A DNA stretch of 64,000 nucleotides from the NCBI GenBank assembly GCA_021234155.1, contig JAJEKV010000054.1, positions 1,488,001 to 1,552,000 of the forward strand, in the 5' to 3' direction. Every line of letters begins with the position of its first letter. The stretch's first letter is position 1. The notes under the pieces are model-generated. The model was not told the DNA's origin. It ran no database searches and saw only the letters and a program-made list of their open reading frames with translations. The stretch comes from Isoetes taiwanensis. Its lineage: Eukaryota; Streptophyta; Lycopodiopsida; Isoetales; Isoetaceae. Positions 23,580-42,052 of the stretch are shown piece after piece. The position numbers and the translations under genes are program-made.

Positions 23580-23890
23580 CACTACAAGAGAATGACAGTT
23601 AGGCGTCAGATAAATCGTCAGGCATTTTCAAAATATTATGCTTGACGATTTCTCTGACGATAAAACTGACGATAAACCACCTGACGTTTTGTCTGACGAA
23701 CCTTCGTCAGAAATTACGTCAGTTTGTTCGTCAGAAACAAACATCAGATGGTACGTCAGGTATTTCGACAGACTAAGCGTCAGAAAATGTTCGTCAGGGA
23801 TATCGTCAGGAATAGCGTCAGGGATTTCGTCAGGTATTATTCAGGCTTTACGTCACACAAAACGTCAGAAAAATCGTCAGGAAAGTCATT
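23580..23890 (+). repeat. CACTA left TIR and subterminal repeat array
   Basis: The TIR (about 44 bp from 23580) is followed by roughly 20 copies of CGTCAG or its inverse CTGACG up to about 23883, spaced 8-25 bp apart in both orientations. In En/Spm such short motifs in both ends bind TNPA (established); here the motif differs and binding is inferred. Confidence 0.9.
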
Positions 23891-24500
23891 CTAAAGACAC
23901 TAACACAATTTTATTCATAACTTTTGATTCAAAAGTCTGTTTGAGATGAAATTTGGTGTTTTAGAAAGCTGTCTCCTTGATCTATCTAATGATGCATTAC
24001 TTGACCAAGCTTGATTAAGTTTCTAAGGTGAAAACCTATAAATTTCCATCCCTAGCTAGAGTATTCTGATAAATCATCTTCCGTGTAGGTAGGGATGCTA
24101 TCTTCAAGTTTTTCCTATTAGATGTGATTAGCATTGGTCCATTGTCTCAGTGCCTCAATCATCAAGGCTCCAATGCACCATAGCTTGCAAAAATATTGCA
24201 AAAATCTCTGTGCTATGGCGATCAACTTCAGCATGTTGCGAAAATCTCTGTGCTATGGCGATCAACTTCGGTGGTTCATCTTCATTTGCATGCCCATGCA
24301 TTATGCATGTCTAGAGCCCTTGCATGTCATTCTATTATAGAGCATTAGATGTCTATTTTCAAAGAATAAATATATCTTGAGCTAAGCCATGGCGCTGGTC
24401 ATGAATAGATAGTCCGTTACCACAAAATTTGATGTAGCTATGAATCGTGAACTATCTCCATTTTGCGAATCCTGTAAATGCGGCAAGGGTTTATAGTAAA
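23891..24500. other. CACTA internal spacer with a 29-bp direct repeat
   Basis: No gene seen. AAAATCTCTGTGCTATGGCG plus nine more bases occurs twice, at 24201-24229 and 24241-24269 (40-bp period). Confidence 0.5.
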
Positions 24501-27060
24501 TATGGCACTCAGAGGAAGGAAGGAAGGAAGTTACTTTTATCGTCCACGGAGACCAATCGGTCTATGGGACCCAATACAAAAACGCAGCAAGCGGATTACT
24601 GCCCGGATTAAAAAACCCCCGCCCCGAAGGGTTTTCGAGGGAAAACCGTGGCGACAATCGGCCTGTACGACAAAAGCGTGCTAATCATATAAAATGCGAA
24701 ACATCCCAATATATACTGAGTCATGCACCACCCCGTAGTGCCTAGTCACGGACGGACCCGGGGGGGCAAAGGTGACCTCGCAGTCCAAGTACCTCCTGGA
24801 TGTATGACCCGGGGGCACGCGTCGACGGTGTGTTCATCGGCAAATGCAAGGGCACGCCCGGCCCGTACTAAGGGAGCGTGTCGGGCCCGACCGATCAACG
24901 GTGGGCAACTCGAAAGTGTGAGACTCATCCTCAATCGGCACCCGTTTGACAAAGACTGACAGAGCCTCTGTCCCGCGGGGCTCCCCAATCCACCCGCCTC
25001 GCCTCGATCGCGAAGATGGTGGGCACCCCGCGAATGGAGGCAATGAGCCCGCTTTTCGGGCATTTGGGAACGCAGGTAGAGCTGTGGGCCCCGGGCTAAC
25101 ACGGGGTTGATGTGCTCCTTGTAATGGGCCATTTTGACCTGCTCTAGAGCAATGGGATCCCGAGCTTGCCAAGGAAAACAAGCATCTAGGTACTCCCCGG
25201 TAGTCACGATCGGTCACAAGCGCCCGGACGCGATCTGTGCTCTCGCGACGCTCCATCCGGGCGAACCATCGATCTCTCTTACCCTCCAATTTGGGCCCTA
25301 AGCGGCTACGGACTCATGGCCACGATTAGTAAGCGAGGCGGGAGCCGAGCATCACCCATAGTAACCACTTTACGAAAATAGGCGATGTGTCTATCAGGGC
25401 TGCCCAGCGGCGGCAAGAATCCAGTTTCTGCAGCGAGAATCGATAGGGGATCAGGTTTCACCCCAAGTGCCCGTGCCAAAATGCCTTCGCACTGCTCCAA
25501 GTCATTCCGGTCGTCAAAGGCGGCCGGGCCCCAAACCGACCCCCGTCTGAAGGGCGGGCTCGACCGGTGCCCGCGGATGTGGCCCGATGGCCCCAATCAT
25601 ATAGCTCTTTTGGTGGCTGTTGTTACGCATTGCATAAAGCTTTCCGGCTGCTGTCACCCATAGCCGGATAGGCGCCTCCAGCGGAAGGAGGGGAACTCCA
25701 CCCCTAGGTACTTGTAGGTGGGCTGGCGCCTACGGCTGTCCCCATATGTGAGTCGCGGGAGGCATGGGGTGACGGAAGAGGATATGAGAACCACCCGGTC
25801 TTGGCGGATTGACGCAAGCATGTCTCAGTAGCGACAAAATGTGTCTAGGGCATCCGGTGAGACCGCATATCTTCTCGGGGTGTGGGCCAGCAGGCCAACA
25901 TCGTCCGCATAGATGAGCTGGCGGATGACCTGGTGCAAAAGATGTATGCCATCCCCCCCATGCTCAGTAAGCCAGGGCTCTAACTGATCAATGTAGAGGC
26001 CAAAAAGTGTCGGCGAGAGGGGGCAACCCTGCCGGACCCCGATACTACTGGTAAATGCTTGGCCCGTCGACTGCATCCTGCCAAAACAACTCTCATACAA
26101 CCTGTATATGGCATTACGCGACAGCAGCGGAGCCCCAGCTGACGCAGATCTAGCCCACAACTTTTCCCCGGGACCAGATCAAAAGCCTTTGCGAAGTCCA
26201 CAAAGCGACAATACAAGTCCAAATAGGTGATTCCGGGCCGTCTTCAATCGGTGCAAGCAGCGTAAAAGATATGGTCAATCGTTGAGTGGCGGGGGTCGAA
26301 AGCCCGCCTCTGTGTGAGGGGCTCGCACATCCGCGACATCCACGCCTCTGCTGGTCAATCGCCGCTTTCGAGAATGCCGATATGAACAGTTTGGCAAATA
26401 ATCGAATCCGACCATGATCGTCCGGTGAATTGGCGGACGGTGGGGTCGCCAGCTTTGTGAATGGGAACAACCCGGCTTGGTCCATTGTCGGGGGAAACCC
26501 TCCCGCAATGCTCGCTGAATCAGGTAGTGAGGACCTGGCACAAGCGGGCCCTGCCCACTTGAGTAACTTCGGCACGCATACCATCGAGGTCACCGCCTTC
26601 CCATTAGCTAGCCGTTGCAGGGCCCTCCTCAACATCCTCATCCACGAGAACCAATGGGGCCATCCCTGTGGGGGTATGGGCGTCGCTGCCCCCCGGGCGG
26701 GTCATAGAGCCGCCGCAAGTACCGCTTCCACGCCCCGTGTGATGTCCCCTCAGAGGGTCGGGCCGGCCTTCGAGCACTCTGGCCCAAAGGTTCGAGGATG
26801 AGTGTCCAGCGAGCGAACATCTCCCCCTGATGCTTGGCAAGGTACCGCGCCTTTGTGTCCTTCAGATGGGCGCGGTACTGTGTGGTGGCCTGCAAGCGGG
26901 TACCTGGATCCAGGATGTGACGGAGCTGCCGCTTGCGTTCTTTACAGTCCGCATCAAACCATCGGTTACGCGGGAATGTTGCTGACCCTGAGCGGCGACG
27001 CGGGGGGGGTCTGCCAAAGCACCTGTCCGCTGCATCCCGTGAGGATACACTGCCACATCA
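24501..27060 (-). mobile_element. LINE family A copy nested in the CACTA element, - strand
   Basis: A GC-richer non-LTR retrotransposon fragment. Reading right to left: RT start (LANGKAV..., about 26600), VDFAKAFDLVPG (about 26200), YRLYESCFGRMQSTG (about 26100), IGVRQGCPLSPTLFGLYIDQ (about 26040), catalytic LIYADDVGLLAHTP (about 25910), TYKYLGVEFPS (about 25710) and a C-terminal part up to about 25300. The 3' untranslated part (24520-24660) is shared with the + strand copy at 22630-22760 and ends in a (GGAA)n run at about 24513-24529. Several frameshifts and stops break the ORF, so it is dead. Its base composition differs sharply from the AT-rich CACTA around it. Confidence 0.8.
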
Positions 27061-27109
27061 ATGGCTCAGGAGTCCGTCACTTAAGCTATAATGTTCATGC
27101 TCGGGAATA

Positions 27110-28545
27110 ATCTTCGCACATGTGGTTAGATTTCCAGAATGGTCTTCACTTTTATCTTAAGCCATTTTCCTTTGGATATTAAACCATCCTTGCCCTAATG
27201 GTCATAAAGGAAATTATAAGTGCCAAGGGCCTTGGGAGCTAGGGATCAATCCCTAGTAATATATTTGTAAATTGAGAGATTATAACATTTATTTTGTATT
27301 AGTCCCATGGTGGCGGTCCCCCCAAGGTGATTTTTCCTAGCTTGCTTAGGTTTCCATCCAAGGGTAATTCTACATGTAATGTGTGTAAGGTGGAGGTATG
27401 AATCCCCTTGCACTTTGTTAATTGTAAGATAAGAAATTTTTCCTTGGTTGTTTTTTTTTTAAAAGACCCCCTTGCATATATGGTTAAGGGTACTAAAGTT
27501 AATGTTATTGAAGGCCTAGAGATCTAGGGGTCGAATCCTTGTATCGTATGTATCTTATTCCTCATGATGGATGTAAGAGTTTCCCCATGGGCGAATGGTC
27601 TACCTTGGGTTGTTTATTAGCAGGTAGGGGGGGCGCTCAATAAATGTATCTTATTCCTCAAGAGTTTCCCCATGGGCGAATTGTCTACCTTGGGTTGTTT
27701 ATTAGCAGGTAGGGGGAGCGCTTAATTATTGTATCTTTTTGTATTTAGTATCTTCATTCCCATGGTGGAGGTATGAATCCCCCCAAGGGTTTATTGCTAT
27801 GTTATGTACATAGCCTTCTTGGTTACGTTATGGTGTCGAGGAGAGTGCCCAAAGATTATTTGGTCACGTTTGTGTGCCGAGGGGAGTGCCCAAAGGTTAT
27901 TTGGTCAAGGGTTTGATCCCTTACATTGTGCATGGTGGCGGTACGAGTCCTCCGTGTGTGTGGTATTACTTAGCTATGTTTGCTTATATTTTTATAGCAT
28001 GGTGCCCAACCTTCTTGTTGTAGTACATGGCTAAGGGGTATACCCCAAGGCTAGATGGTCAAGGGTTTAAACCCTGGGCATGTATTGCATACTTGGTAGA
28101 GGTACGAGTCCTCCCATACTTGCTTGTGGGTTCTTTTATGATTCTTTTTTCCACTTTGAATGTCCTAGAGACATGGAGTTTGCCATGTGTGTACAATGTG
28201 ATGGGGCAAGCATTAGTTAATTGGTTTAATATTTGAAGGATTATCAAAGTCTTTACATCTACCAAATTAAGCAACCAACTATAATTAGTAAATGCTTTTG
28301 ATATACACAAGAACCATCATAATCGAATGCTAAGGTAGTAATTTTGAAACTCTTGATTATCTTACATATCCAATTTAGCAAAGTTCAAGCTCTTAAGATA
28401 AAAAGGCACAAAACTTTAATGGAAAGATAGGAAATCACACACTATTTTAATTAAAGGAAAACCATTATATATGGGGAATAGATTAGTATTTCAGATCATC
28501 AAAATGATGAGGTCATAGTTGAACTTAATATAAGATAAAAGTTTG
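27110..28545. repeat. Degenerate repeat block with tRNA-B-box-like motifs
   Basis: No gene. Repeated motifs of two kinds alternate: a B-box-like GGGTTTRAWCCC (AGGGATCAATCCCT near 27240, AGGGGTCGAATCC near 27526, AAGGGTTTGATCCC near 27907, AAGGGTTTAAACCC near 28063) and GGTGGAGGTATGAATCCCC variants (near 27394, 27763, 27933, 28096). There is also a direct duplication of about 90 bp (27548-27643 and 27644-27733) and a GTGCCCAAAGRTTATTTGGTCA repeat at about 27846-27907. It looks like decayed tandem units of a tRNA-derived (SINE-like) repeat; that origin is inference. The rest up to 28545 shows nothing. Confidence 0.45.
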
Positions 28546-28549
28546 TTTC

Positions 28550-31500
28550 TTATTCACCAGACATTAAACCCTCGTCCACAAAATCATGATCAATGTCCTC
28601 CCATTCATCATCATCTAGTTGTAAGAGTAGTCTTCGTCGTCTATTTGGAGTTTGGAGCTCAATATCTTCCTCCTCCTCAATATAATCTTCAACAAAATTC
28701 ATCGACGATCTTACTTCTTGATTGTTTGTTCCCTCTTCAACTTCCTCCTCGATGTCATCTTCATCGATATGCATCGAGACTCTCAATCCTTGATTGCTCG
28801 TTCCCTCTTGAGCTTCGTATTCTTCTATGTTTATTGGCTCCACAAACTCCATCATTTGCTCATGTTCTACCTCTTCTTCTTGCTCCTCTTGCCCTTCTTC
28901 CTCGACATTTGTGTTGCAAATATATCTACGTGACATTGGTTCCGTGGGAATTACAATCCACCACGCATTATTTTGAGGGTTGACATGAAAGAAAACTTGT
29001 TGAACCTGATGTGGATACACATATGGCTCACTTCTGTCGACTAAGACATGCGTGGAGTCAACTTCAAAAAATCCAGAAGGATGTGGTCGCATTGTTTGGT
29101 TTCGTCCACGATATAAAGGTTTGAACCACTTGGCCTTTAATACGGTTTGTCGAAATGATCGAAAATCCACATCAATGATATCGGTAATGATCCCGACATA
29201 TTCAAGTTCTCCATCAATAGGATTATCATCTCTAGTACTTGCTTGACTCTTTTGATTAAATGAGGCTATGATTCCAGAATCAAAAGTAATGCGAGCCTTG
29301 TCAATGTCATCAATTCGAAAGTGTGCACCATATGCCCACATTGAATTATGAAACCTAGCCTGCACATTGGTTACATATATAAGTGATGTGAGATGGTTAG
29401 CAAACGCAAAATACATATTGACAACAATAAATAGAAACTTGCCGATTTTTCAGAACCAAATGCAATGTTGAGGTCATCCTCTTGAATTTTTTCTCCATTT
29501 TCTTCAGCTTCTCTAAGCTTTTGTGACAACCACCAATGGGGTGGAGAATCAGGTAGAGGCATTAGTTCGCGAGGGTATTGTATGGCTCTTCTATGATGTC
29601 CTCGACGGTTTCTTGCAGCATATGCTTTCCTATTGCTATCTCTTTGTGCCTTCTCAATTTTATACAACTCCACCCACCTCTTAAGGCTATCTGTATTGTT
29701 CACAACAAACTTGTTGATACCTTCAAACATTTCATCACTTAACCTCCTTTGTTTACCTAGACCCTGCAAGACTTCACCTTCTAACCAATCATGAGCCTCT
29801 TTCTTCCAAATCTTTGGTGCATTTGGATCTATTGACGTGGTGGCGTCTGTCAAGAAGAATAATGTCTCCTCAATAAGATGTCCTTCTGCCATACATCCCT
29901 CAGGCCTTGCCATCTGGCGCACAAAGCCTTTTAATACTTTCATATATCTCTCTAAAAAGAACATCCATCTTGAAGGGTTTGGACCCACGAGCAATATTTC
30001 TTGCGGCAAATGCACCAACAAATGTACCTAAGAATAACATTTGTTACGTATGATTGGTACATGAAATTTATTTAAATAGTTACATCATACCTGAAGATCA
30101 AATATACTGGTGGGAAACAGATCTTCTAATTGGCATAATATCTCCGCAATCTCTATTTCCATAGCTGGGATATCAGCAGCTACAATTTGCTTAGAAGAGA
30201 CCCACCTAGAGAAGCTTGCGAGTCTATAGATGACCTTCCGAATGCGTGGTGTGAGGCAATTCTCCAAGGCACATGGGAGAATATGCTGTTATAATAAGGA
30301 AAAGAATTAGGTGTCATTGTCATATAGATTTACAAGTTTCAAGATATTGTAAGCAATTTATTGGTGGACTTCATCTATTTAGTCCATTGGTCATGCTTCT
30401 TTAGTTATTACACTTATATGTACCTGTAGAAACTTGTGCCAATCATGCGACTTTAAGCCTGTGAGATCCCCATCTTTTGTGAATGCCCTCCTAAGGGAGG
30501 ATCCATAGCCAGTCGGAGTGCGCAAACTTTTAATGGCTTCTTTTACTTGTTTGAGTTCATCCCTCTTTAATACCCAAGGACCTCGAAGAAAGCGAGGAGC
30601 TCTACCCTCTTCTTCAATTGGCCACAACTCCTTTTTGATGCCTTTATCTTTTAGATCATTCCTAGCTTTTAGAGTTTCCCAATCTCTCGTAAGATGTCGC
30701 CAAAGTGAGTGGCTCACATTTTTGAAAATATGCATAGGATCTAAGAGATGTGCAATCTTTAGCTCAGACCAATATTCCAATGTGTAAAATATAGATAGCA
30801 TCTTCATGCCAGGCGGATGTTTACCCTTTTCTGGGTCATGATCATTCCATGTATTCAACCAATCACGTGGAGTTCTTCTAATTGGAACATCTGATAAATC
30901 ACCACAACGAAGCTCATGACCTAGGGGTAGATACTTTTGATGCCCAATGTATATCATCTTTGACAAGTGTGATGATTTATAAGATGTTAAGTTTTGGCCG
31001 CAAGATGGACACCCACATGATCCGCTAGTTTGCAATCCTGCAAAAAAAAGTAAATGCCCAATTGAACCTTGTAGTGGATAACTTGCACAAACAAATATGG
31101 TGAGCATAAGCATCGTACCCGATGCAACTTTAAATCCAGGATAGTCATGAATTGTGAAGCATAGTATTCCATGGAATGTAAAATTGTGTGGTTGCCTTGA
31201 AATGTCGTACATGTGTATGCCTTTCCATAAAATATCCAATTCCTCCACAAGTGGTTCTAAGTATACATTCATATCCTTGACTTGGTATTTGCCTAAGAAG
31301 CAAAATTGCATTAAATTAGAAAGCAACAAACCTACATAAAAATACATTTGAAGGCTATGTAAAGGTATGTACCTGGAACTATAAGTGTGAGCATTAAATG
31401 GCCTACCTTAGTTGCCATCCAAGGTGGTATGTTATAGTTTATAACAACAATGGGCCAGACACTATGAGTAGATGACATCGTTCCAAATGGACATATTCCA

Positions 31501-32303
31501 TCCATGCCCAAAGCAAGACGAGCATTCCTTGGTTCATCCTTAAAATGTGGCCATTTGTCTTCTATATGTTTCAAAGCCTCACCATCGGTTGGGTACCTCA
31601 AAATTCCATCATTGCTTCGGTGTTTTGCATGGAAGTCCATGAATGATGCTAGGGAGGGACATTTGAACATGACTTGTAATCGGGGAATGATTGGCATGTG
31701 CCGCAAAACTTTCTTTGGCACTTTGGACTTTGTTTTTTCATCATATCGTGATTCATTGCACTTAGGACATCTAGTCATGTCACTATATTCATTGCGGAAT
31801 AATATGCAATCATTTAAACACGCATGAATACAATTGTATTCTAAACCTAGTTCTTGCAAAAGTTGCTTGACATCCCTTCGTGATTTTGGAAGACAATGAT
31901 CACTTGGAAGTAAATACTCACCTAGCAAACTATCAAACAAGATAAAAGTGTGAGTAAGCAAGGAAGGAAAATAAAGAATAGAATTCAATAGAAACTTGTA
32001 TAATTTTAAATCTTAAATCACCCACCCAAGAAGTTCATCAACACTATTGTTACTCCAACCGGATTTGTGTTGTAAGTTGAGGACGAGAATGCATGCAGCG
32101 AGACGTGATATTCTTGCATTTGGATATAGTGGTTTTCTACTCTCTCTCTCAAGAAGTGTGACCGGCCTCTCTTCTTCATTATTGACGTTTACATCACTAG
32201 TGGATGGGAAGTAATTTTGAATGGCTTCCATCAAACCACTCTCCGCGTGGAAATCACCTTGAGTAGATAAAACATCATCATCACTTGACTGCAAAGAACA
32301 CAT
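28550..32303 (-). CDS. CACTA transposase, TNP2-DUF4218-DUF4216 (multi-exon)
   Basis: The main CACTA transposase, which cuts and joins element ends in the nucleus. Exons lie on the - strand. 32303-32020: MCSLQSSDDD start, then LYPNARISRLAACILVLNLQ and WSNNSVDELL. 31988-31380: TNP2 core with HACLNDCILFRNEYSDMTRC, CPKCNESRY, MPIIPRLQVMFKCPSLASF, LALGMDGICPFGTMSSTHSV. 31290-30430: VYLEPLVEELDILWKGIHMY, CFTIHDYPGF, GCPSCGQ, YIGHQKYLP, HLLDPMHIFKNV. 30240-29870: DUF4218 with ILCQLEDLFPTSIFDLQ and ERYMKVLKGFVRQMARPEG. 29350-28900: DUF4216 with VLKAKWFKPLYRGR. The tail is very acidic. Exons look open without stops, with GT..AG-type borders; I did not fix every splice site. The start could instead be an upstream exon, since CAG precedes SSDDD. 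Confidence 0.85.
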
Positions 32304-32523
32304 TTGTTGGTAAATGAATTAAAATAAAATGGAAAGACAAGTTGAAGAATGGACTGGAAAGAAAGAAGATACATCCAACAATAAATGTTTATAGATTCTA
32401 ATTATTATTAGACGTAAATGTCAAACTTTAAAACCTTTAAAAGTTCAGAATTCCCAATATTATAGAAAAGGACATAAGTCTTGTAGTGATTCAACAATGA
32501 TCTTGGATCCCATTATTACATGG

Positions 32524-33879
32524 TTATCCATTTGTATGGCGTTTTCTACCATAGGGTACAACAATAGGTTCACCATTTTTTTGGCGTTGCACCCGTCTAG
32601 GGATATCTCTTTTGAAGGGATAATTCACAAATAACTCATCTCCAGGACGGAGGCTTCGTATTGCACAAACCCTCACATATGATCCAACATATCCACTCAT
32701 GTACCGTGGATCATATTCCGTAGTCTCTTCGAACTCATCATTTGTTAATTCAGGGCGGCCGTGAGAGCTGTTTATAAGTGCAGCAATATTGCCGTGAACC
32801 CTTGGTCGACCATCAATATATACCAGTGCGCCCCGTGAAGTATGTTCTCCGCGATCTCTTTGCTCACTCCAAGATGCTGCATTCAATGTCATGGCATACC
32901 TAGACATACTAGGCATAAAAGAAGTAAGTTTATGCCACATTCCCCAAGGGTACGTGGGACCGCCATATACCATCAATACAGTGGAGTGTCCAGATGGTAC
33001 ATTCACATGCTCCATTATGTACAACCCCCTTCCAGCCTGTGGAATTTTTAGAGAAGGAGCTATCATGTACTTATGGCCCCAATATATAAACTCTTTTAAC
33101 ATTGGAGGTAGTTCTCCTTCCCAGCAACCTAAGGATGCCCGAACAAATGGGGCAATAGAGGCTTTGAGATGATGAGGGAGTTGATCAACCATGTCATTTT
33201 CACTTTCACACACATGGGTAAGGTTATGCGCGTTTTTCTTAAAATGGCTCTTAACTATCATAGCCACTGTACTTCCCCTTGTGCGACCTCTCTTAACTTC
33301 TTGGGTCTCTCCTGATCTTGAACTAGAACTAGAACTTGAAGACATAGGACTACCTATTGAATTGGCATGTCCAAGATTTTTGTCAAGCATGTCCAAATAC
33401 TACAACAAGTCAAAGTCATGTAGATGTAGATTAGATATATTGCTATGAAACAATAATAAAATTGCAAAATTTGCATTCTTACCTCGTTTGCTTCTTGACG
33501 TGCTTTCAATTCAGACTCACATGGAGGTGGGGCATTTTTCATCAAACCATACTTCCTTTTGTGTTCTTGTCTCGTGGTGTACATTCTTCTATTATTGCCT
33601 TTGCATTGGTTACACCAACAATTGCCATATTGCCTTGCAAGCTGCTCCAACGGATCATTTCGAAGCCAAGATTTAGCCCTTGCTTCTGCTTGACTGAGAC
33701 GATGAAGAATCTCTATTGCTGAGAGCAAGTGAATCTCATTATATGCAATACTAAATGCAAGACAAATAAGAGAGATAGAAAGAGGTTTGAAACCTTATTG
33801 GTGGGAAGTCATCAATCGACGGCATCGAAGACTCAGCGGATGATGAATCAGAGTCACCATCAGAGTCAGTGTCACCCAT
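32524..33879 (-). CDS. SET-domain protein encoded by the CACTA element
   Basis: A - strand gene immediately upstream of the TNP2 gene. The exon 33728-33483 has a Cys motif (NCWCNQCKGN) and EHKRKYGLM, resembling the small Cys domain at the N-terminus of many CACTA transposases. A GT..AG intron (33482-33400) joins in phase to 33399-32524. That exon has a Ser-rich linker, a basic stretch (KRGRTRGST) and then SET motifs in the right order: QAGRGLYIMEHVNVPSGHST (SET-I), VHGNIAALINSSHGRPEL (the N..INHS box), and VRVCAIRSLRPGDELFVNYP (the A.R.I..GEEL..DY box with the Tyr). It ends in a normal stop (HTNG). SET domains usually methylate lysines on histones or other proteins; the substrate here is unknown. 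An acidic first exon (MGDTDSDGDSDSSS, 33879-33793) is possible, but its junction phase does not fit simply. NHSC reads NSSH, so activity is uncertain. Confidence 0.7.
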
Positions 33880-33979
33880 CACGGTTTATTTTTACAGTAG
33901 TAGCATGGACGACAGGTAAAAAGAAAAAGTAGCAAAAACCCTAAGTCATAAATCCCGTAACCAAAAAAACTATAAAAAA

Positions 33980-34065
33980 ACAGATCGTCAGAAGTAATTA
34001 TCTGACGATTGTTCGTCAGATAAAACGTCAGGCATATCTTCTATTTCTACAAGAATTTGTCGCGG
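33980..34065. promoter_or_regulatory. Internal CGTCAG cluster upstream of the SET gene
   Basis: About 100 bp upstream of the SET gene lies GATCGTCAGAAG, TTATCTGACGATTGTTCG, GTCAGATAAAACGTCAGGC, i.e. five CGTCAG/CTGACG units as in the outer subterminal arrays. It is followed by TTTCTACAAGAA, which looks like a CACTA terminus. It may be the transposase-responsive promoter or the relic of an older right end. Both readings are inference. Confidence 0.55.
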
Positions 34066-35690
34066 CGGTCTTCACCGCCGCAGCTTTGTGCTTTTTAGTT
34101 TGTTTTTTGAAAAGCTATATGGAATATGAGGTTGCAAATAAGAAAGAAAGAGTGCTTTACATTTTTTAGAAAAGATTTGCATTCTGTTGATAGCAGCTTC
34201 ATCACCAAACAACAAAATATCGTTATCAGTTAGTTGTATTGGCTTGTTTTAGTTCAATAGCTTTATGTCCTTAACGAAAACAAAGACCATTGAGAATTAA
34301 TGTGATAGAGTTCTACATTTGTCAAACGATCTTTTGAAGTTGTTAACTTTTTTAGAAGTATTCAAAACATGTAGATGGATCTAGGGATAAGTTGTTTCAT
34401 CTTGTTTTTGTTTTTTTTTTTGGAAATGACGTATAACTTATATGAAAGAAAGATTCAAAAAAGCCATAACGTTTGAAAGAGCAATTAGATGATCCTCAAA
34501 GATCGTGTTTGAAAGAGCAATTAGATGATCCTCAAAGATCGTGTTTCTGCTTCAACATAAGCTACTCGGGGGCTTCTAATGTTCCATGCTTCAACATAAG
34601 CTATGCAATTACTGGTCGCTGAAATCACAATTCCAATGGTCCTAGTATTAATGGTAGGGATATTTTATGTTGCCTGCAGTTAGACTTCCAAATCGATGGT
34701 GCTGTGAGAAAGTAAAATTGTCCCTTTTTTCCATGAATTTCATTTTAGAGGATAACAGATTGGCATTGAAAGAATCACTACTACTCCGCCTCTACTAAGA
34801 ATTGGAAGATTGACTGTTGGAAACATCCTGAAGTACCCTTAACAGGGTATATTCTTTATATTGAATTTGGCATGAGTCTGATTTTTTTCACCCTCCAGCA
34901 ATTCTTTCAAACATTCAATATTTTCAACATTTTCAACATTTAGTATTCGCTGGGGACTTGAGCATCTATTCGATGGCCTATAATGTTGAGATATATAAAT
35001 GCCGAAAACTCATATTACTTCCTTAAAGAGGGCGAATCCCAGAATCCTGTATCCATCACTTAAGCTTGAGTAGATCTCATGAACATCCATCACTCAAGCT
35101 TGATCAAAGCTTAAGAAGCAAAATCTATTGAGGATTTTCAAATTTCAAATTACAACTTATGAACATCCATCACGTACTTGGGAAAAACTTATGAAGCAAA
35201 GTTTATGAAGATCACAAACAAATTACCACCGAAGACTCTAAATCAATTACATAGAAGCATTCTGGAAAACCACATCTTAATATCATACAGAACCATGCAA
35301 TAATTTCTTAGCAAAATCTGAACAACAATATGTTGCAACTACAAACCAGCCAACCTCCAAAAAGTAAGCCAAACGCTTCAAGAAGTAGACTGAGCAAGGC
35401 AGTGAGGAAATTCTTGGGAAGTCAAATCAGAGATTTTTGTGGAGAGGGTGCCAACTTCAAAATGAGAAGAACCAGAATCAGGATCATCTGCATGGATGCC
35501 ACTAACAGGCAGCCACACGAACACACCTGTTTAATTCTGATGCTAGCGATGTCATCAACAAATTTGCCTTTCACAATCTCACAATCTTGTCACTGTTTAA
35601 TTCTGATGCTAGCGATGTCATCAACAAATTTGCCTTTCACAATCTCACAATCTTGTCATACCAAACCTCCCCATCAAGTTTAGCATAGCA
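34066..35690. other. CACTA internal spacer with short tandem repeats
   Basis: About 1.6 kb with no gene recognised. It contains a GC-rich palindrome (GCGGCGGTCTTCACCGCCGC, about 34062), a 36-bp tandem duplication at 34471-34542, and a 66-bp tandem duplication at 35527-35658. The latter overlaps the start of the exon-like block described next. Confidence 0.5.
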
Positions 35691-36130
35691 AGGCTCTGTT
35701 AGAGCTATTCCAAACATGCGACTTTCTTCTTCAGTTTTGTAGGCAATGATGGTCTCTGGAAAAAGGCCCCTTGCCAGCCCATTCTCATTTCGGATTCTTC
35801 AGATTCTCCCTTGCTTTCAGATTCTTCTGATTTCCCTCTTTCAGACTCGGGTTCAAAATGCTCCAAAAAACCTGTATAATGCTTTAATCTGTATTACATA
35901 GCCTCTAACAAAAGATTGACTTACTCTTCATCTCTATTTTGCTTCTTAAAAGCGGGATGACTCCACTAGCAGTGCTCTGCCTGACTGCTTCCTTCTTATT
36001 CAATGACTTGAACCTGAGCCCGCAAAATAAAACAATTTTATGATCTCAGATAAACATCCATCCAACTCTCAAGCTTTACTTCCATTCCTTATCGTCTATG
36101 GGATCCTTCCATCATTTGTCCTAGGGCAAA
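35690..36130 (-). pseudogene. Exon-like fragments of an unrecognised gene
   Basis: On the - strand several short open pieces with splice-like borders can be read: SLNKKEAVRQSTASGVIPLL (about 36010-35950), a Ser/Glu-rich piece (ERGKSEESESKGESEESE, about 35850-35795) and YKTEEESRMFGIALTEPCYA followed by KLDGEVWYDKIV (about 35750-35655). I do not recognise the family. They have the look of captured genomic exons, like APX next to them. Frame breaks are present. Confidence 0.35.
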
Positions 36131-36169
36131 AAGTGGATAAAAATAGGATTTACGTTTTACATCTCTGTT

Positions 36170-36700
36170 AAGGGTGGATTATACACAACCTTTGTTGGAT
36201 CAGGAAGACGCCCCTCCTCTGGGCTCTCTGTTTTGTCCTGCCACAAACAGCACACTTGTTAAAAATGGCAGCAAAATAAACGGGTAAATTAATAGCTGCT
36301 GATAATGATATACCTCTCTTCCAGGATGGAATGGAATATCAGGGCCTCCAGTAACTCCAACTGCTACAACTCCTGCAAGCTATTTTAAGAAAAAAAGTCA
36401 GGATTTAAGATCGAACATGGGGTCTATTCAAACTATAAATCAAAACAGAGCTCCATACATATAGGATGAATTTAGCATATTACCTGATAGAAATCAGTAA
36501 GCCGAGAATTGGAAACTGCTCCTTGATCGGCTCAAGCAGTCTAACAGCAATATCCAAACCAGCATTACACCATGTGCCAAATACTGTAACTATATATAGA
36601 AGAAAACTGTTGCATCACATGATTTCGCCATGGCTATGGTAGGACATAGAGGGAAGGTTTGAAGCCTTACGGTGCTTGCCAGACATCGAGACAAAATTCA
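36170..36700 (-). pseudogene. APX: Captured ascorbate peroxidase gene fragment
   Basis: Pieces of a plant ascorbate peroxidase on the - strand, read right to left. A degraded GPFMLNFVSMSGKH (about 36690; normal APLMLRLAWHSAGT) comes first, then FGTWCNAGLDIAVRLLEPIK (about 36580-36525) with EQFPIL after it. A one-base slip follows before LTDFYQ, then comes an intron, [20 protein letters not shown] (about 36380-36320) ending RE at a GT donor, another intron, and [16 protein letters not shown] (about 36240-36190). The intron positions after DFYQ, after PGRE and after PTK are those I recall for plant APX genes, so the fragment was taken as genomic DNA. APX reduces hydrogen peroxide with ascorbate. 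The catalytic half is degraded and the gene is dead. Confidence 0.8.
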
Positions 36701-36799
36701 GCATGAATGGGCCTATTCCATCAAACGAGTTTGATGCTTCTGATTTCGTCTTCTGCTTTTTAAAGCCTCGATTTCGTCGCCAAGCTTGAAAATCCACAC

Positions 36800-38460
36800 A
36801 TAGGTCTTCTTAGTTTTTTAACCTTCCGCAGCTTCAAATCTATTATACGGCACTGGAGGCCAGCCGAGACTGAAAACCCAGCTTCAATTGAAACCTAAAA
36901 CACCAACATAGCTGTCACAATACCGTCACTCTGCACAAACTTCGTCTCTTAGACCTCCGACGGCTGGCATACAGGAAATACAGAGCTATGCGCTTGATTC
37001 TGGAGGTTCAGGAATTACAAAGCAGGATTCCGGATCAGAATCCTCGACAAAACCCTTTCTTCACAGTGAGATATCCCAATTCCAATCTATCTCCATCGAT
37101 GTAGGTTTGGACTTTTCGCCTCTCCCTCCTTCTTTTATATGATGCAACATAATCCGTAAGCTTCTGGAACAGCGGGCGTATCATCTTCTCGAACCTACAT
37201 TTCTCGAACCTGCAAGAAGCTTCAAATCATCTTTCTAGGAACTTCTGGATTACGTGTAGGTGTCGACTTCTGAAAGGTTTAATGTTCTCCCCAATATTTT
37301 AGACGCCTACACGTATACAACTCTAAGCAAAAATATAACTTTTTGTAACAATAGCAAGTACGTCCAAGCTGCCCCCTTATCCTCCATATTACAATTATAT
37401 ATTAGAGATAAAATAATATTAAGGCGTTGTGGACTTAAACAAAAATTGGAAAAAAAAAGCCCGATACCTAGGGGAAAAAAAATGGCAAAAAAAATGGCGG
37501 ACGTATCCTTTCTTCTTGTTTTGCCGCCAACTCTGAGGAGCAAAGCGGAGTGCGCCTAATCTTCAGATCATTTTCGTGATAAGAGCAGCCGTGGAATCCT
37601 GTGTCAACAGGTTTGTAATTTATGAAGAATTTGCTAACATTTTACGGCAATGCATGATGTGCTTCTAATGCATGATGTGCTTCGGATTCCATGATCATGT
37701 CGTGGATCAACTAATCAACTAATTGATGCAGGGAAGAGGACGAGAGAGAGCTACACCATTTAGAGTAACAGAAGACGGAGACGGTTGAGGCTTTCTTGTT
37801 TGGTTGGATAAGCCAGAGGTCATACAACTTGCTGGTTTCCAAGAACAGCTAAGATGTTTCATTCAGCTTATGACCTTAATAGATCTTAGAACTTACCTAT
37901 TCTGCACACTAATATGAATCTTAGCCTAGACGATAGCAGAGCTTATCTAGTTTCCAGTTTGTTATCTAAATGCCGTCTACAAAATGCCGTCTTGGTAAGG
38001 AAATTCGAGCAGGCTGTATATTAGGGTTGGTAAATCCAAAACCATTTGTAAATACTTAGAGAGTATCTTTTATAAGACTACTGATGTGACTCAGGCGTTA
38101 GATAATCTTGCATTATTTGTCTACAGTTCATTTAGAATTTAGTGTGAAATGCTTTAGTAAGGTGCATATTATAAGCATCTAGATAGTGAATCTTGCCTCT
38201 CTACAAATCTATTGTTTCATGATTGATTCTCAAGCTTAGTCAAAATATGGAAATTGATTAATTAAAGCCATAATGATAGTAGGAATCAGATTTGAATGTA
38301 AATTTGCAGGTGCGCATTGCTACATAAAAAAGAGGATTTCGATCACTATTCTGCCTAAAAGTAAGTCATTTTCACTTGCTCCATTTGGTTTGTATGGCTT
38401 CCTCCTGAATGCTCTTTGTATGACTTGCTTGGTTATCTTCTTTAGGTGGCCCCAAATAAT
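36800..38460. other. CACTA internal spacer, possible leader of the + strand gene
   Basis: About 1.6 kb. A short open piece near 36960-37090 (LRRLAYRKYRAMRLILEVQ on the + strand) is not recognised. GTGTCAACAGGTTTG at about 37600 and CTTTAGGTGG at 38444 look like splice borders of a leader for the gene that starts at 38461. Nothing else stands out. Confidence 0.4.
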
Positions 38461-40709
38461 ATGTCTAAGAAAGGAGCAAGCTCACGAGAGAAAGGTGGCA
38501 GCAATGAAGGTGGCACATCGACGGACCTGCAAAATATGGTGGCCGAGATGTCGCAAGAGGAGTTGTTAAAATTCAAGTCTTTGCTAGACAAGCATCTTAA
38601 GCAGACTCCATCAAATGCTCCGTCAAAGGCCGCTCATCATCAAAAAGGTTCAAGCTCTTCTAAAAGCGCTGGAAAATCAAGGTATAGTATTAGTTGTAAC
38701 GTAATGTCAATTGATTGTTTAGCACAAAGGCAATAAAGTAGAAATGTGTAAACTAAAAAACTATGAAATCTAAAAATTCAGAAATATAAATTCTTGTAGA
38801 TGGATTAACTTGGTTATTTTATAGTCAAAAATCCGTAAATGCCCCCGATGCTAATGGGAACGATGAAGACCACGACATTATAAATGAGGAGATGGACGAG
38901 AGCGAGGATTCAAGCGATATGGAAGAGGAAGACGTCACATTTAGAAGACTTAGCAAGAAGAAAAGTGTATGTTTGACTTCTATTATGATTGTGATTCTAT
39001 TCTGTTTTTGATGTCATATTGATCCACTTCTTCATAACAACTAACTTGGTACCCTAAGAGAATGTACCTTGCTACATTCCTGGAAAGTCTGAGCATTTCC
39101 ATACTATAATCTATGGATAACCTTGAGGGAATGCCTCAATTTGACAGCCTTCTTTAGAATAATTGCTGCAGCTAACTTGGTACCCAAGGATGATGTACCT
39201 TGCTGACTAAACGCCATGGCCCAACCAACCAAAAAGATACTCTGGGTAAACCACTTAAAAAGATTGAATTTAGTCTTGCTATGTGTGCTAGAACTGGCTG
39301 GAGAATCTGCCATGTCTGTCATACTACATTTCTGGGAAGTCCGTTCTAGGCAAGTTGGAACCTATCAGAATACAGCAATGCCATAAGCACCAGGACATCA
39401 TGTTTGCCCTGTATCAGCAGAACACAAAATTACCTTATGACGGAGTGAAACAGCATTAAGCGCATCCTCTTCACACTTTCTAGATTTATATCTTTGCAGA
39501 TTTGCTTCCTCATGTACACTCATGTACTCTGTAGGTCCAAGATCCTGTATTTAGACAAAAAAGGTAATACAATCAGGGTATTGAACGAAAAGAAAAATAT
39601 CTTCTTCTTCCAAATGTCATATGATAAACAGGCAACAGATGAGAACCTCTGGATCATGGCGTTTTGCAGCATATGAAACAACATCATTCTTCTTCTTCAC
39701 AACATCTTCCCACTGTCCTGGATTACTTCTGTGTCTCCCATCCAAGTCTTCCATTAGCTGTTTAAGATCATCCTCTGTTATTTCTGTAGATGGTTGATCT
39801 TTATAGAGTCCGTTGCTGCCACCTCTATCAAATAAAAAAATCAATGATATTAGCACCTTTACTATGGCTGAAGAAATATAGTTGTTCTTCACTTTATTGG
39901 GATAGGTCACAATGGTTCGTGGAGGTCATATTCACATGGATGAGCATGGCGAGACATGGAAGAAAGCCCTTGGCCATGCTGTAAAATTTCTTTGTCGGGA
40001 TATTGACTTGGGTTGGAAAGAGATATCAGCAGACGTCAAGAAGAAGTTAGTGGATCATATGGAGACTAAATTTGGTAAAGGTGTAATGGGAAGGAACATA
40101 CTATATGATGCCAGCCGTCAATATAACCACTGGAAGTAAGTAATCTATTTCAGTCAATTATTTAGCTTGTTTTTTAATTATTTATCTAGCTTATGTTGGT
40201 GGACAGGAACTATTTGACAAGAAGTAAAACTCAAACAGCTCCGCTATATATTACGCCCGAAGTTTGGACACGCTTTCAAGAAAAAGCTAAGGCAGATCAT
40301 ACGCAGCAAAAAAGAGCAGCTGCTGCACGAAAAGAAGAGCCACAAAGGTGGGGGAGACGTGGCATTAATGGCATGCTTGCAGATTATGTAAGAAACCTTC
40401 TATTCATTCATAATTTTTTATTTAACCAATTAATTTTAATTTTGTGTCTTTTATAGTATCGGGATTGGGGCAGCTATCCGTCTGCAATCACTATTGAGAA
40501 GATTAAAACTAAAGGGACATACAAATTATATAGAGAATCCCTGATTGCCGAAGGAAGAGTTCCTGGAAATGTAAGTTGAACTTTAAGGAGTCCCTTGTAG
40601 ATTAAATTTTAAATGTGTTCAATCTAACAAATGCTGCCGTGGTTTGTAGTTTAAAAGCGTGGATCACATAGGAAGATGGGTAACTATTTTAACAAGCCGT
40701 GATTCGTGG
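38461..40709 (+). CDS. Second CACTA gene, possible TNPA/Transposase_24-like protein
   Basis: A + strand gene model with exons 38461-38681, 38825-38966, 39906-40135, 40207-40387, 40457-40570 and 40650-40709. All borders are GT..AG and the phases agree. The protein starts MSKKGASSREKGG, has an acidic stretch (NEEMDESEDSSDMEEED), then MVRGGHIHMDEHGETWKKAL, WTRFQEKAKADHTQQKRAAA, RKEEPQRWGRRGINGMLADY and YRDWGSYPSAITIEKIKTKG. The K/R-rich part followed by a GRRGINGMLADY-like block recalls the plant Ptta/En/Spm transposase family (PF03004), whose members are the TNPA-like partners of TNP2. Assignment is tentative. The 3' end is not found: captured DXR sequence starts at 40882. A START-protein exon lies antisense in its third intron. 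Confidence 0.5.
39647..39824 (-). pseudogene. Captured START-domain protein exon
   Basis: One exon on the - strand with an AG acceptor before it and GT after it. It encodes GGSNGLYKDQPSTEITEDDL, then KQLMEDLDGRHRSNPGQWED and VVSYAAKRHDPE. This matches the start of the START lipid-binding domain in plant proteins of the type 'TDDL..L...EEK..G..W..MMDRST..MSYQAWR.DPE'. The central Arg/Ser positions are altered. It lies inside an intron of the + strand gene. A decayed segment at about 39104-39322 (same strand) might be another exon of it, without proof. No function expected. Confidence 0.6.
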
Positions 40710-40881
40710 GTAAGGTTCATTCTTTAAATTACTGAAAAGAGCTTATGGGTGTGTTTCTGCCGCAGCATTTGTAGTTCCAATCAGGAGCCTTGAAGACCAT
40801 GAGCCTCTCCCTGGCATCACTGTTATAGGGCTACTTTTGATTATTTGTTTCTAATCTTGGGTACACTAACTCGTGCAAAAG

Positions 40882-41039
40882 GTTGCTAAACATCCTGAAG
40901 CAGTGGAGGTTGTGACAGGCATTGTTGGTTGTGCTGGCCTGAAGGTATTGCGTAAGTCTTGTTGTTTAAAGTATCTAATGAGGAGTTTTGATTCCAACTG
41001 TCATCTTTTGATCAGCCAACCATTGCAGCAATAGAAGCC
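40882..41039 (+). pseudogene. DXR: Captured DXR (1-deoxyxylulose 5-phosphate reductoisomerase) fragment
   Basis: Two short exons with an intron between them. Exon 40882-40944 encodes VAKHPEAV then [13 protein letters not shown]. After a GT..AG intron, 41016-41039 encodes PTIAAIEA. Plant DXR has V.[28 protein letters not shown] at this place, so the match is very close. DXR makes methylerythritol phosphate in the plastid isoprenoid pathway. Only about 29 residues remain, with no catalytic site, so this is a transduplicated gene scrap in the CACTA element. Retention of the intron shows DNA-level capture. Confidence 0.85.
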
Positions 41040-41059
41040 ATGGTCAACCGCTAATTATA

Positions 41060-41610
41060 ACAGGTACATACTATAAATTGGATATGTTAGAGTCTTTTTA
41101 CTTTAGAAAGAAAGACTTCTGACTAAGATCTTTAAATGTTTCAGAATGATCATTTTGCAGCCAGATAAAAAGCTTGGATTTTCAGGATGTACATAGGCGA
41201 ATATATGTGTTTCCTTGGGAAAAGACCATGTCTTATATATTTGCTAAAAGTAATGACTGTCATGTCAGCCTGGAACTATAAGGCTTAGCAGATTGTGTGG
41301 AATGCAGTTGCTCTATCATTTACTCTGATATGAGTATGGTTTCAATAAAATATAGCATGGCATTATTAACATTATAGCTTGATGATCCCTAAGGTGCTTT
41401 AGCTAATAAAACTTGTTGACATCACATCTCGGATTATAAGGCTGAATGTACCATTATAGAATTAATGCTGATAGTGGAAGTGTTCCACAAATGAGATCAT
41501 AACATGTCAAGACTTCAAATCAGTCTTAGTAGACATTCATAATATTGTCTCCAGCACCCGTTTTAATAGCAAGATAAAAAAAATTCTGAAATGAGCAATT
41601 TATTAAACAA
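41060..41610. other. CACTA internal spacer before the right array
   Basis: About 550 AT-rich bases. No gene or repeat recognised. Confidence 0.4.
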
Positions 41611-42052
41611 GTGACGATGTAAATGACGAAGACTGTGACGTTTTTGTTGACGAAAGACCTGACGAAAAAGCCAACAAAAACCCTGACGATTTTTTTGACA
41701 CAGAAAGTGACGAAATTATTGACGAAAATCCTGACGATTTTTCTGACACAAAAAGATGACGAAATTGCTGACGAAACTCCTGACGATTTTTCTGACGCAA
41801 GAGTTGACGCAAGCTCTGACGCTATTTCGTCAGACCTGACGATTTACCTGACGCTATTTCGTCAGACCTGACGATTTACCTGACGCTATATCGTCAGACA
41901 ACCTGACGATTTACCTGACGTTTCATCTGACGCACAATCGTCAGATAAAAATCGTCAGCCAAATCGTCACCCAGAGGTGTCTGTGCAGTCCTCTGTTTAA
42001 TAAAGACTGCCTGACGATTATTCTGACGCCTAACATTCATTCTCTTGTAGTG
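41611..42052 (-). repeat. CACTA right subterminal array and TIR
   Basis: About 35 copies of TGACG-type units, first in the TGACGAAA..CTGACG style, then a duplicated block CGATTTACCTGACGCTATTT with CGTCAGACCTGA (about 41830-41890). The array ends in the TIR, which reads inward CACTACAAGAGAATGAATGT from 42052. The array is denser than the left one. Confidence 0.9.

Follow-up and report, generated by a model that had tools for sequence, protein, structure and literature searches.

A putative SET-domain exon associated with the transposase gene of a CACTA transposon family in Isoetes taiwanensis

Plants silence CACTA elements by DNA and histone methylation, and the locus described here touches on the question of how some of these elements stay active despite that silencing. 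SETMAR, a protein of primates, is a fusion of a SET domain and a mariner transposon. It resembles the CACTA-borne SET sequence reported below in that a SET domain is joined to the DNA-binding module of a transposon, a function that is predicted for the Cys module of the CACTA element. However, SETMAR is a single-copy host gene involving mariner, whereas the CACTA SET sequence is the element's own gene and occurs in more than 100 places. The maize element En/Spm makes two proteins, tnpA and tnpD, by alternative splicing. It shares with the Isoetes element its CACTA ends, a TNP2-type transposase and, if our gene model is right, the production of two proteins per unit, but it is not known to have a SET domain. 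In addition, we know of no SET domain in the anti-silencing proteins of the Arabidopsis Vandal elements, which differ from CACTA elements in belonging to the MuDR superfamily.

The Vandal proteins are mentioned in PMC12730594, and the likeness would lie in an element-encoded factor that regulates the silencing of its own element. According to the same paper, SET genes are present in the HarbingerS and MuDR elements of Phytophthora (Kojima and Jurka 2014, as cited in PMC12730594). Like the CACTA element, HarbingerS and SET-MuDR are, as presented there, DNA transposons equipped with their own gene for a SET methyltransferase, but they belong to other transposase superfamilies and reside in other hosts. 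The paper also describes TET/JBP genes in fungal EnSpm and other transposons, which have been interpreted as a means of escape from silencing (PMC12730594). The similarity is that an element-borne enzyme acts on epigenetic marks; the differences are that this enzyme is a TET/JBP dioxygenase instead of a SET protein and that the EnSpm elements concerned are fungal. A previous inspection of the Isoetes locus, here called the sequence-only reading, had put forward a SET gene in a CACTA element as something not described before. That claim has to be narrowed. Published work already records SET genes in DNA transposons of other kinds. For the CACTA case, a full-text literature search, whose coverage leaves most subscription papers and Repbase entries outside, listed no paper that we recognised as a report of SET in CACTA/EnSpm. 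What we have not seen described is the placement that the sequences point to, namely inside the transposase gene.

The CACTA element and its gene content

The window, by which we mean the whole stretch of 64,000 nucleotides analysed (contig JAJEKV010000054.1 of I. taiwanensis), contains a CACTA element of 18,473 bp (23580..42052) that is bounded by terminal inverted repeats (TIRs). The TIR at the 3' end relative to the genes is located at 23580..23624 (+) and reads CACTACAAGAGAATGA..., and its inverted-repeat partner at the 5' end is located at 42008..42052 (-). These TIRs (inverted repeat I2) are 45 nt long, are 91% complementary and start with CACTACAAGA, that is, with CACTA, as do those of CACTA/EnSpm elements. 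The flanks read GAAA|CACTA and TAGTG|AAAA; the AAA on each side could be a 3-bp target-site duplication, but the surroundings are A-rich. Subterminal repeats of the CTGACG/CGTCAG type, another CACTA/EnSpm characteristic, are present in both ends, at 23640..23884 on the left (direct-repeat families D1-D5) and at 41612..42028 on the right (D1-D3). The transposase, encoded on the minus strand, is also of the CACTA/EnSpm kind and not of the Harbinger or mariner kind found in HarbingerS or SETMAR. It consists of the N-terminal (31332..32012; PF02992, 5.6e-29) and C-terminal (30391..31407; PF02992, 3.7e-21) parts of TNP2 (Transposase_21), a DUF4218 exon (29371..30027; PF13960, 1e-17) and a DUF4216 exon (28550..29449) whose match to PF13952 (2.6e-5) is below the cut-off of that model.

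Several other sequences are found within the element. A fragment of a captured host gene is located at 36190-36380 (-); a 22-residue piece of it, encoded at 36314-36379, is similar to cytosolic ascorbate peroxidase (PDB 1apx, 1.2e-7), and by eye the next exon holds a further piece of 16 letters. PPR sequences, besides those of ascorbate peroxidase, are found in the window, and both indicate plant DNA. A reverse transcriptase piece (RVT_1, 6.6e-8) is nested in the element at 25825-26178 (-), 3' of the DUF4216 exon, and positions 35527-35658 contain a perfect tandem duplication of 66 nt. Finally, a patch of subterminal-type repeats is present at 33998-34041, distant from both ends, and the start codon of the gene described next follows some 120 bp downstream; the patch may be an old end of the element, in which case the region from 34 to 41.6 kb was added later, or it may contain promoter binding sites.

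Upstream of TNP2, on the same strand, three exons can be joined into an open model of 390 aa. Exon 1 (33794..33879), present in the model only, encodes an acidic/Ser-rich N terminus; it starts with the ATG at 33879 and ends at the donor AAG|GTTTCA. It is joined in phase 2, through a GT..AG intron of 100 nt (33793-33694) with the acceptor CGTCTCAG|TCA, to exon 2 (33483..33693), which contains the Cys motif CWCNQC and is Transpos_assoc-like. Exon 2 is followed by a GT..AG intron of 83 nt (33482-33400), flanked in phase 0, and by exon 3 (32524..33399), which encodes 291 aa with the SET motifs and has its own stop codon. The sequence-only reading had proposed just this in-phase GT..AG join between a CWCNQCKG-containing exon and a SET exon. 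Several of the modelled splice sites are weak. Exon 1 has other possible open joins, which makes the N terminus the most uncertain region of the model. The first TNP2 exon, exon 4 (32013..32288; 3' limit approximate), starts at the acceptor TTTGCAG|TCA at 32288, in phase 0. Exons like exon 2 are present in L015, L018, L022, L031 and other copies. The window Cys exon has no Pfam match. A likeness to Transpos_assoc (PF13963) is seen in those of L015, L018, L021 and L022, but all four stay under the cut-off of 27.7 bits (at best 22.9 bits for the L022 exon and 20.8 bits in its spliced model).

Directly past the SET stop codon, ten bases of the TIR start (CACTACAAGA) occur once more, at 32479-32488 (-). 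This repeat is also present in a 98% identical sibling (L064) and may be due to chance.

Assignment of exon 3 to the SET family

Three SET motifs had been recognised in exon 3 by the sequence-only reading, and they do occur in the right order in a single open frame (32524-33399, minus strand), at residues 122-137 (AGRGLYIMEHVNVPSG), 203-214 (GNIAALINSSHG) and 246-261 (AIRSLRPGDELFVNYP). Comparison with the Pfam SET model (PF00856) gave a divided answer: the window exon scores 20.8 bits (E 5.5e-4) and misses the cut-off of 22.4 bits by 1.6 bits, whereas the model of its sister L022 passes it with 32.5 bits (1.3e-7). Furthermore, 12 of the 13 aligned family members match PF00856 at E <= 0.01, the best at 1.1e-7. 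When the SET-exon family was aligned by hhalign with SET domains that the host genome encodes at six loci (L001-L006), a score of 41.9 was obtained, whereas none of 100 column-shuffled controls scored above 23.5 and a reversed control gave 13.2; the alignment pairs INSS with INHS and VNYPF with YDYQF.

Searches against individual proteins gave weaker results. With phmmer, the window SET sequence matched no PDB chain at E <= 10, and none of the NCBIfam SET models was matched; the most notable NCBIfam match was LegAS4/AnkI, at 0.058 in a single member. A PDB profile search built on 8 rows gave weak matches led by LegAS4 entries (E 0.047 and 0.051). When the profile comprised 13 rows, the first match was to a phosducin-like protein (0.06), followed by LegAS4 (0.098 and 0.11) and KMT2B (0.93). 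AlphaFold2, run on a five-row alignment, yielded a mean pLDDT of 41, too poor for use, and therefore a SET fold is not supported by a structure model. Based on the sequence comparisons, we hold that the window exon encodes a divergent SET domain. The sequence-only reading had been prepared to give up this assignment if there was neither a Pfam SET hit above threshold nor a SET fold in a predicted model, or if the exon occurred only here; L022 lies over the cut-off, and the exon is conserved in sister copies, as described below.

Is this divergent domain likely to be catalytic? The GxG motif for AdoMet reads GRG in the window and is present in 22 of 25 aligned rows, the other three having GRS. 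The conserved tyrosine of the C-terminal motif (Y260) is found in all 25 rows, as are N210 and S212, and S211 is found in 24. The box that normally reads NHS(C) is altered, as had been suspected: it is NSS in 24 rows and NNS in one. The altered box raises the alternative that exon 3 encodes a catalytically dead fold, kept in order to bind AdoMet or a protein such as histones, the transposase or a host silencing factor. The extent of the divergence, with PDB profile matches reaching only E 0.05-0.9, argues in the same direction. On the other hand, the conservation of Y260, N210 and GxG argues against a dead fold, and LegAS4 has INFS aligned at the NHS site. LegAS4 is an active methyltransferase, and PRDM9, too, is not known to have the canonical motif. 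We consider a dead fold unlikely, although it is one of the two alternatives that survive best.

Copies, constraint and position relative to the transposase gene

A search of the genome (1.66 Gb in 1110 contigs) with the SET-exon protein gave at least 139 matches that are 46-100% identical, a lower bound obtained by scoring 134 of 1352 candidates. By our own count, 14 of these are extra pieces of copies already counted, which leaves about 125 places. The constraint on the exon was estimated from 25 rows, consisting of 20 copies chosen for stop-free frames plus the window, L015, L021, L022 and L031. Among the 300 pairs, 97 had a dS between 0.1 and 1.5; their median dN/dS is 0.22 (range 0.12-0.55), 96 of the pairs fall below 0.5, and no pair reaches 1. 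These values are biased low because the copies were picked for open frames, and they come from pairs that share ancestry and hence are not independent. In another lineage, L021 compared with L009, L010, L015, L018 and L019 gives 0.22-0.25 at dS 0.19-0.23, and other pairs of that lineage, mostly those with L012 or L020, reach up to 1.1. The window and its 98% sibling give 0.86, at a dS of 0.01. Taken at face value, the exon looks kept by selection across many copies, and we are highly confident that a SET-type protein is maintained by the CACTA element.

The association with TNP2 extends to the sister copies. We fetched 20 regions from the 72 matches on the genome's Pfam SET list, a non-random choice in which 10 were picked for frames of 274-279 aa. 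A homologue of the SET exon is present in 18 of them, and in 15 of these 18 TNP2 is located downstream on the same strand. Comparison of the 72 SET places with 39 TNP2 places revealed three further same-strand pairs, 1.0-1.2 kb apart, and L064 and L065, which lie downstream of two more SET copies, encode TNP2 too. A CACTACTAGAGAATG end is present upstream of the gene in L011, L022, L023 and L026. The order Cys exon, SET exon, TNP2 is found in five diverged SET-bearing lineages (the window, L015, L022, L034/L043 and L031 types), which are about 33-61% identical. Two copies of the L022 type, L029 (3200-3800) and L030 (3500-4200), have a 5' CACTA end in common; their 3' TIR was sought and was not found, and their likeness on that side ends at a long run of T.

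One of these lineages comes from another organism. L031 is contig CAKZGI010000455.1, plant-like in character, of a GTDB metagenome-assembled genome (MAG) binned as the cyanobacterium Trichormus (ERR2144891), and carries on a single strand, in this order, a CACTA end at position 67, the Cys exon, the SET exon, TNP2, DUF4218 and DUF4216. We infer that it is fern host DNA, probably a host contamination of the cyanobacterial MAG, because neither TNP2 nor the modelled introns are bacterial features and because the assigned genus includes Trichormus azollae, the symbiont of Azolla. The window and L031 are 43% identical in SET and 42% in TNP2, as if both parts had travelled together. Elsewhere, relatives were confirmed for one of 46 pattern matches in GTDB genome contigs and for none of 50 in viral contigs; none were found in plasmids, and a set of 5.8 billion proteins contained five.

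The reverse approach, starting from TNP2, was based on a list of at least 167 matches, for which 150 of the 2311 candidates had been scored. Among its first 26 entries 12 loci were sampled, and their 3 kb upstream were examined. SET is present upstream in four of the 12 (L033, L034, L035 and L043), with broken frames in L033 and L035. No SET was found within this distance at the other eight, and the SET exon therefore appears to be dispensable. These loci differ in what precedes TNP2. L032 contains a Cys exon that is 84% identical to that of L022, and in L039-L042 a CPCTKC exon precedes TNP2 by about 0.5 kb, in all cases without SET; L036, L037 and L038 have neither a Cys exon nor SET in the 3 kb upstream. 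Thus, the Cys motif exon directly precedes TNP2 in L032 and L039-L042, whereas the SET exon intervenes in SET-bearing copies. In L032 the nucleotide match with L022 runs to 2085 and resumes at 2108, skipping 4517 to 5512 of L022, which looks like a clean intron-to-intron loss of the SET exon. Its Cys exon has a dN/dS of 0.21 and is in phase 0 with exon 4, and its TNP2 frame is open (480 aa).

Two further observations bear on the gene structure. Firstly, the exon-2 donor and the exon-4 acceptor are both in phase 0 in the window, L015, L022 and L031. Secondly, exon 4 contains conserved coding sequence ahead of its first Met in L022 and L065. Together with the loss in L032, these observations lead us to assign the SET exon to an intron within the transposase gene. 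We consider that the Cys exon is probably common to the transposase and the SET protein. The original description of a gene next to TNP2 is correct as to the adjacency, which is repeated in the copies, but an exon nested in the transposase gene is a better description than a neighbouring gene.

It is conceivable that the Zn-SET and TNP2 sequences are two adjoining genes with separate promoters and starts. As would be expected for separate genes, the SET exon of the window, L015, L021, L022 and L031 types is closed by a stop codon of its own, and in L031 and L015 an ATG is located within 20 nt of the exon-4 acceptor. We nevertheless judge this arrangement improbable, about as much so as a dead fold, given that exon 4 of L022 and L065 has conserved coding sequence before its first Met, that SET-less relatives retain the Cys exon just ahead of TNP2, in phase 0 in L032, and that at the 11 loci scanned the stretch from SET to TNP2 has no other CxCxxC motif on the strand of the gene. 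Much less probable is a single fused Zn-SET-TNP2 protein, in which the SET exon is spliced into exon 4. L015 does have a phase-0 GAG|GTCCTT just before the SET stop, followed by an exon 4 in phase 0, but in L031 the sequence from the Tyr motif to the stop lacks a phase-0 GT, and none was seen by eye in L022, so that a fusion is mostly rejected. The element in the window does contain a captured host gene fragment, that of ascorbate peroxidase, but such capture without a role for the element (Pack-CACTA cargo) can be dismissed for the SET exon, which at least five diverged lineages (about 33-61% identical) carry at the same position, with a dN/dS of about 0.22.

How the exon came to be distributed in this way was examined on a TNP2 tree of 25 N-terminal pieces out of 28 found (L026, L034 and L038 were too short). 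On this tree the presence of SET requires three changes, compared with a mean of 6.3 after shuffling, and one of 500 shuffles was as low. The distribution is compatible with an old gain followed by losses; independent gains may also have occurred.

Possible function of the SET protein

The explanation that we consider best overall, and hold with moderate confidence, is that a transposase gene with a nested SET exon gives rise to two proteins, one of which acts on chromatin at the element. The divergent SET exon, with its own stop, would sit in an intron between the Cys (Transpos_assoc-like) exon and the TNP2 exons. From this one transcription unit, alternative splicing or early polyadenylation would produce two proteins with the same N-terminal module. 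One would be a Zn-TNP2-DUF4218-DUF4216 transposase, the other a Zn-SET protein about 390 aa long. The common Cys module, which is predicted to bind metal and DNA, would bring the SET protein to the ends of its own element, and there its target would be a lysine, either of nucleosomes or of the transposase, whose methylation would keep the element expressed or movable. That the SET protein is an active methyltransferase aimed at the element is plausible, if somewhat doubtful.

Regarding its role, we favour anti-silencing, because the element keeps the SET exon under constraint. It is also possible that the element limits its own copy number in this way. A constrained, element-encoded SET protein with the N-terminal module of the transposase would provide the element with a direct way of acting on its own chromatin. 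The features of this CACTA family, with a SET exon apparently in its transposase gene, suggest that it makes its own chromatin-modifying protein. More tentatively, the elements may represent a widespread and long-lived CACTA lineage of land plants that, through a spliced transposase gene, uses an end-binding module to steer a histone methyltransferase and so controls its silencing.

Two sister TNP2 copies, L032 and L037, have open TNP2 frames and no SET exon in the 3 kb upstream. They possibly belong to a natural SET-less lineage, and such copies would constitute a built-in natural comparison for the SET-bearing ones.
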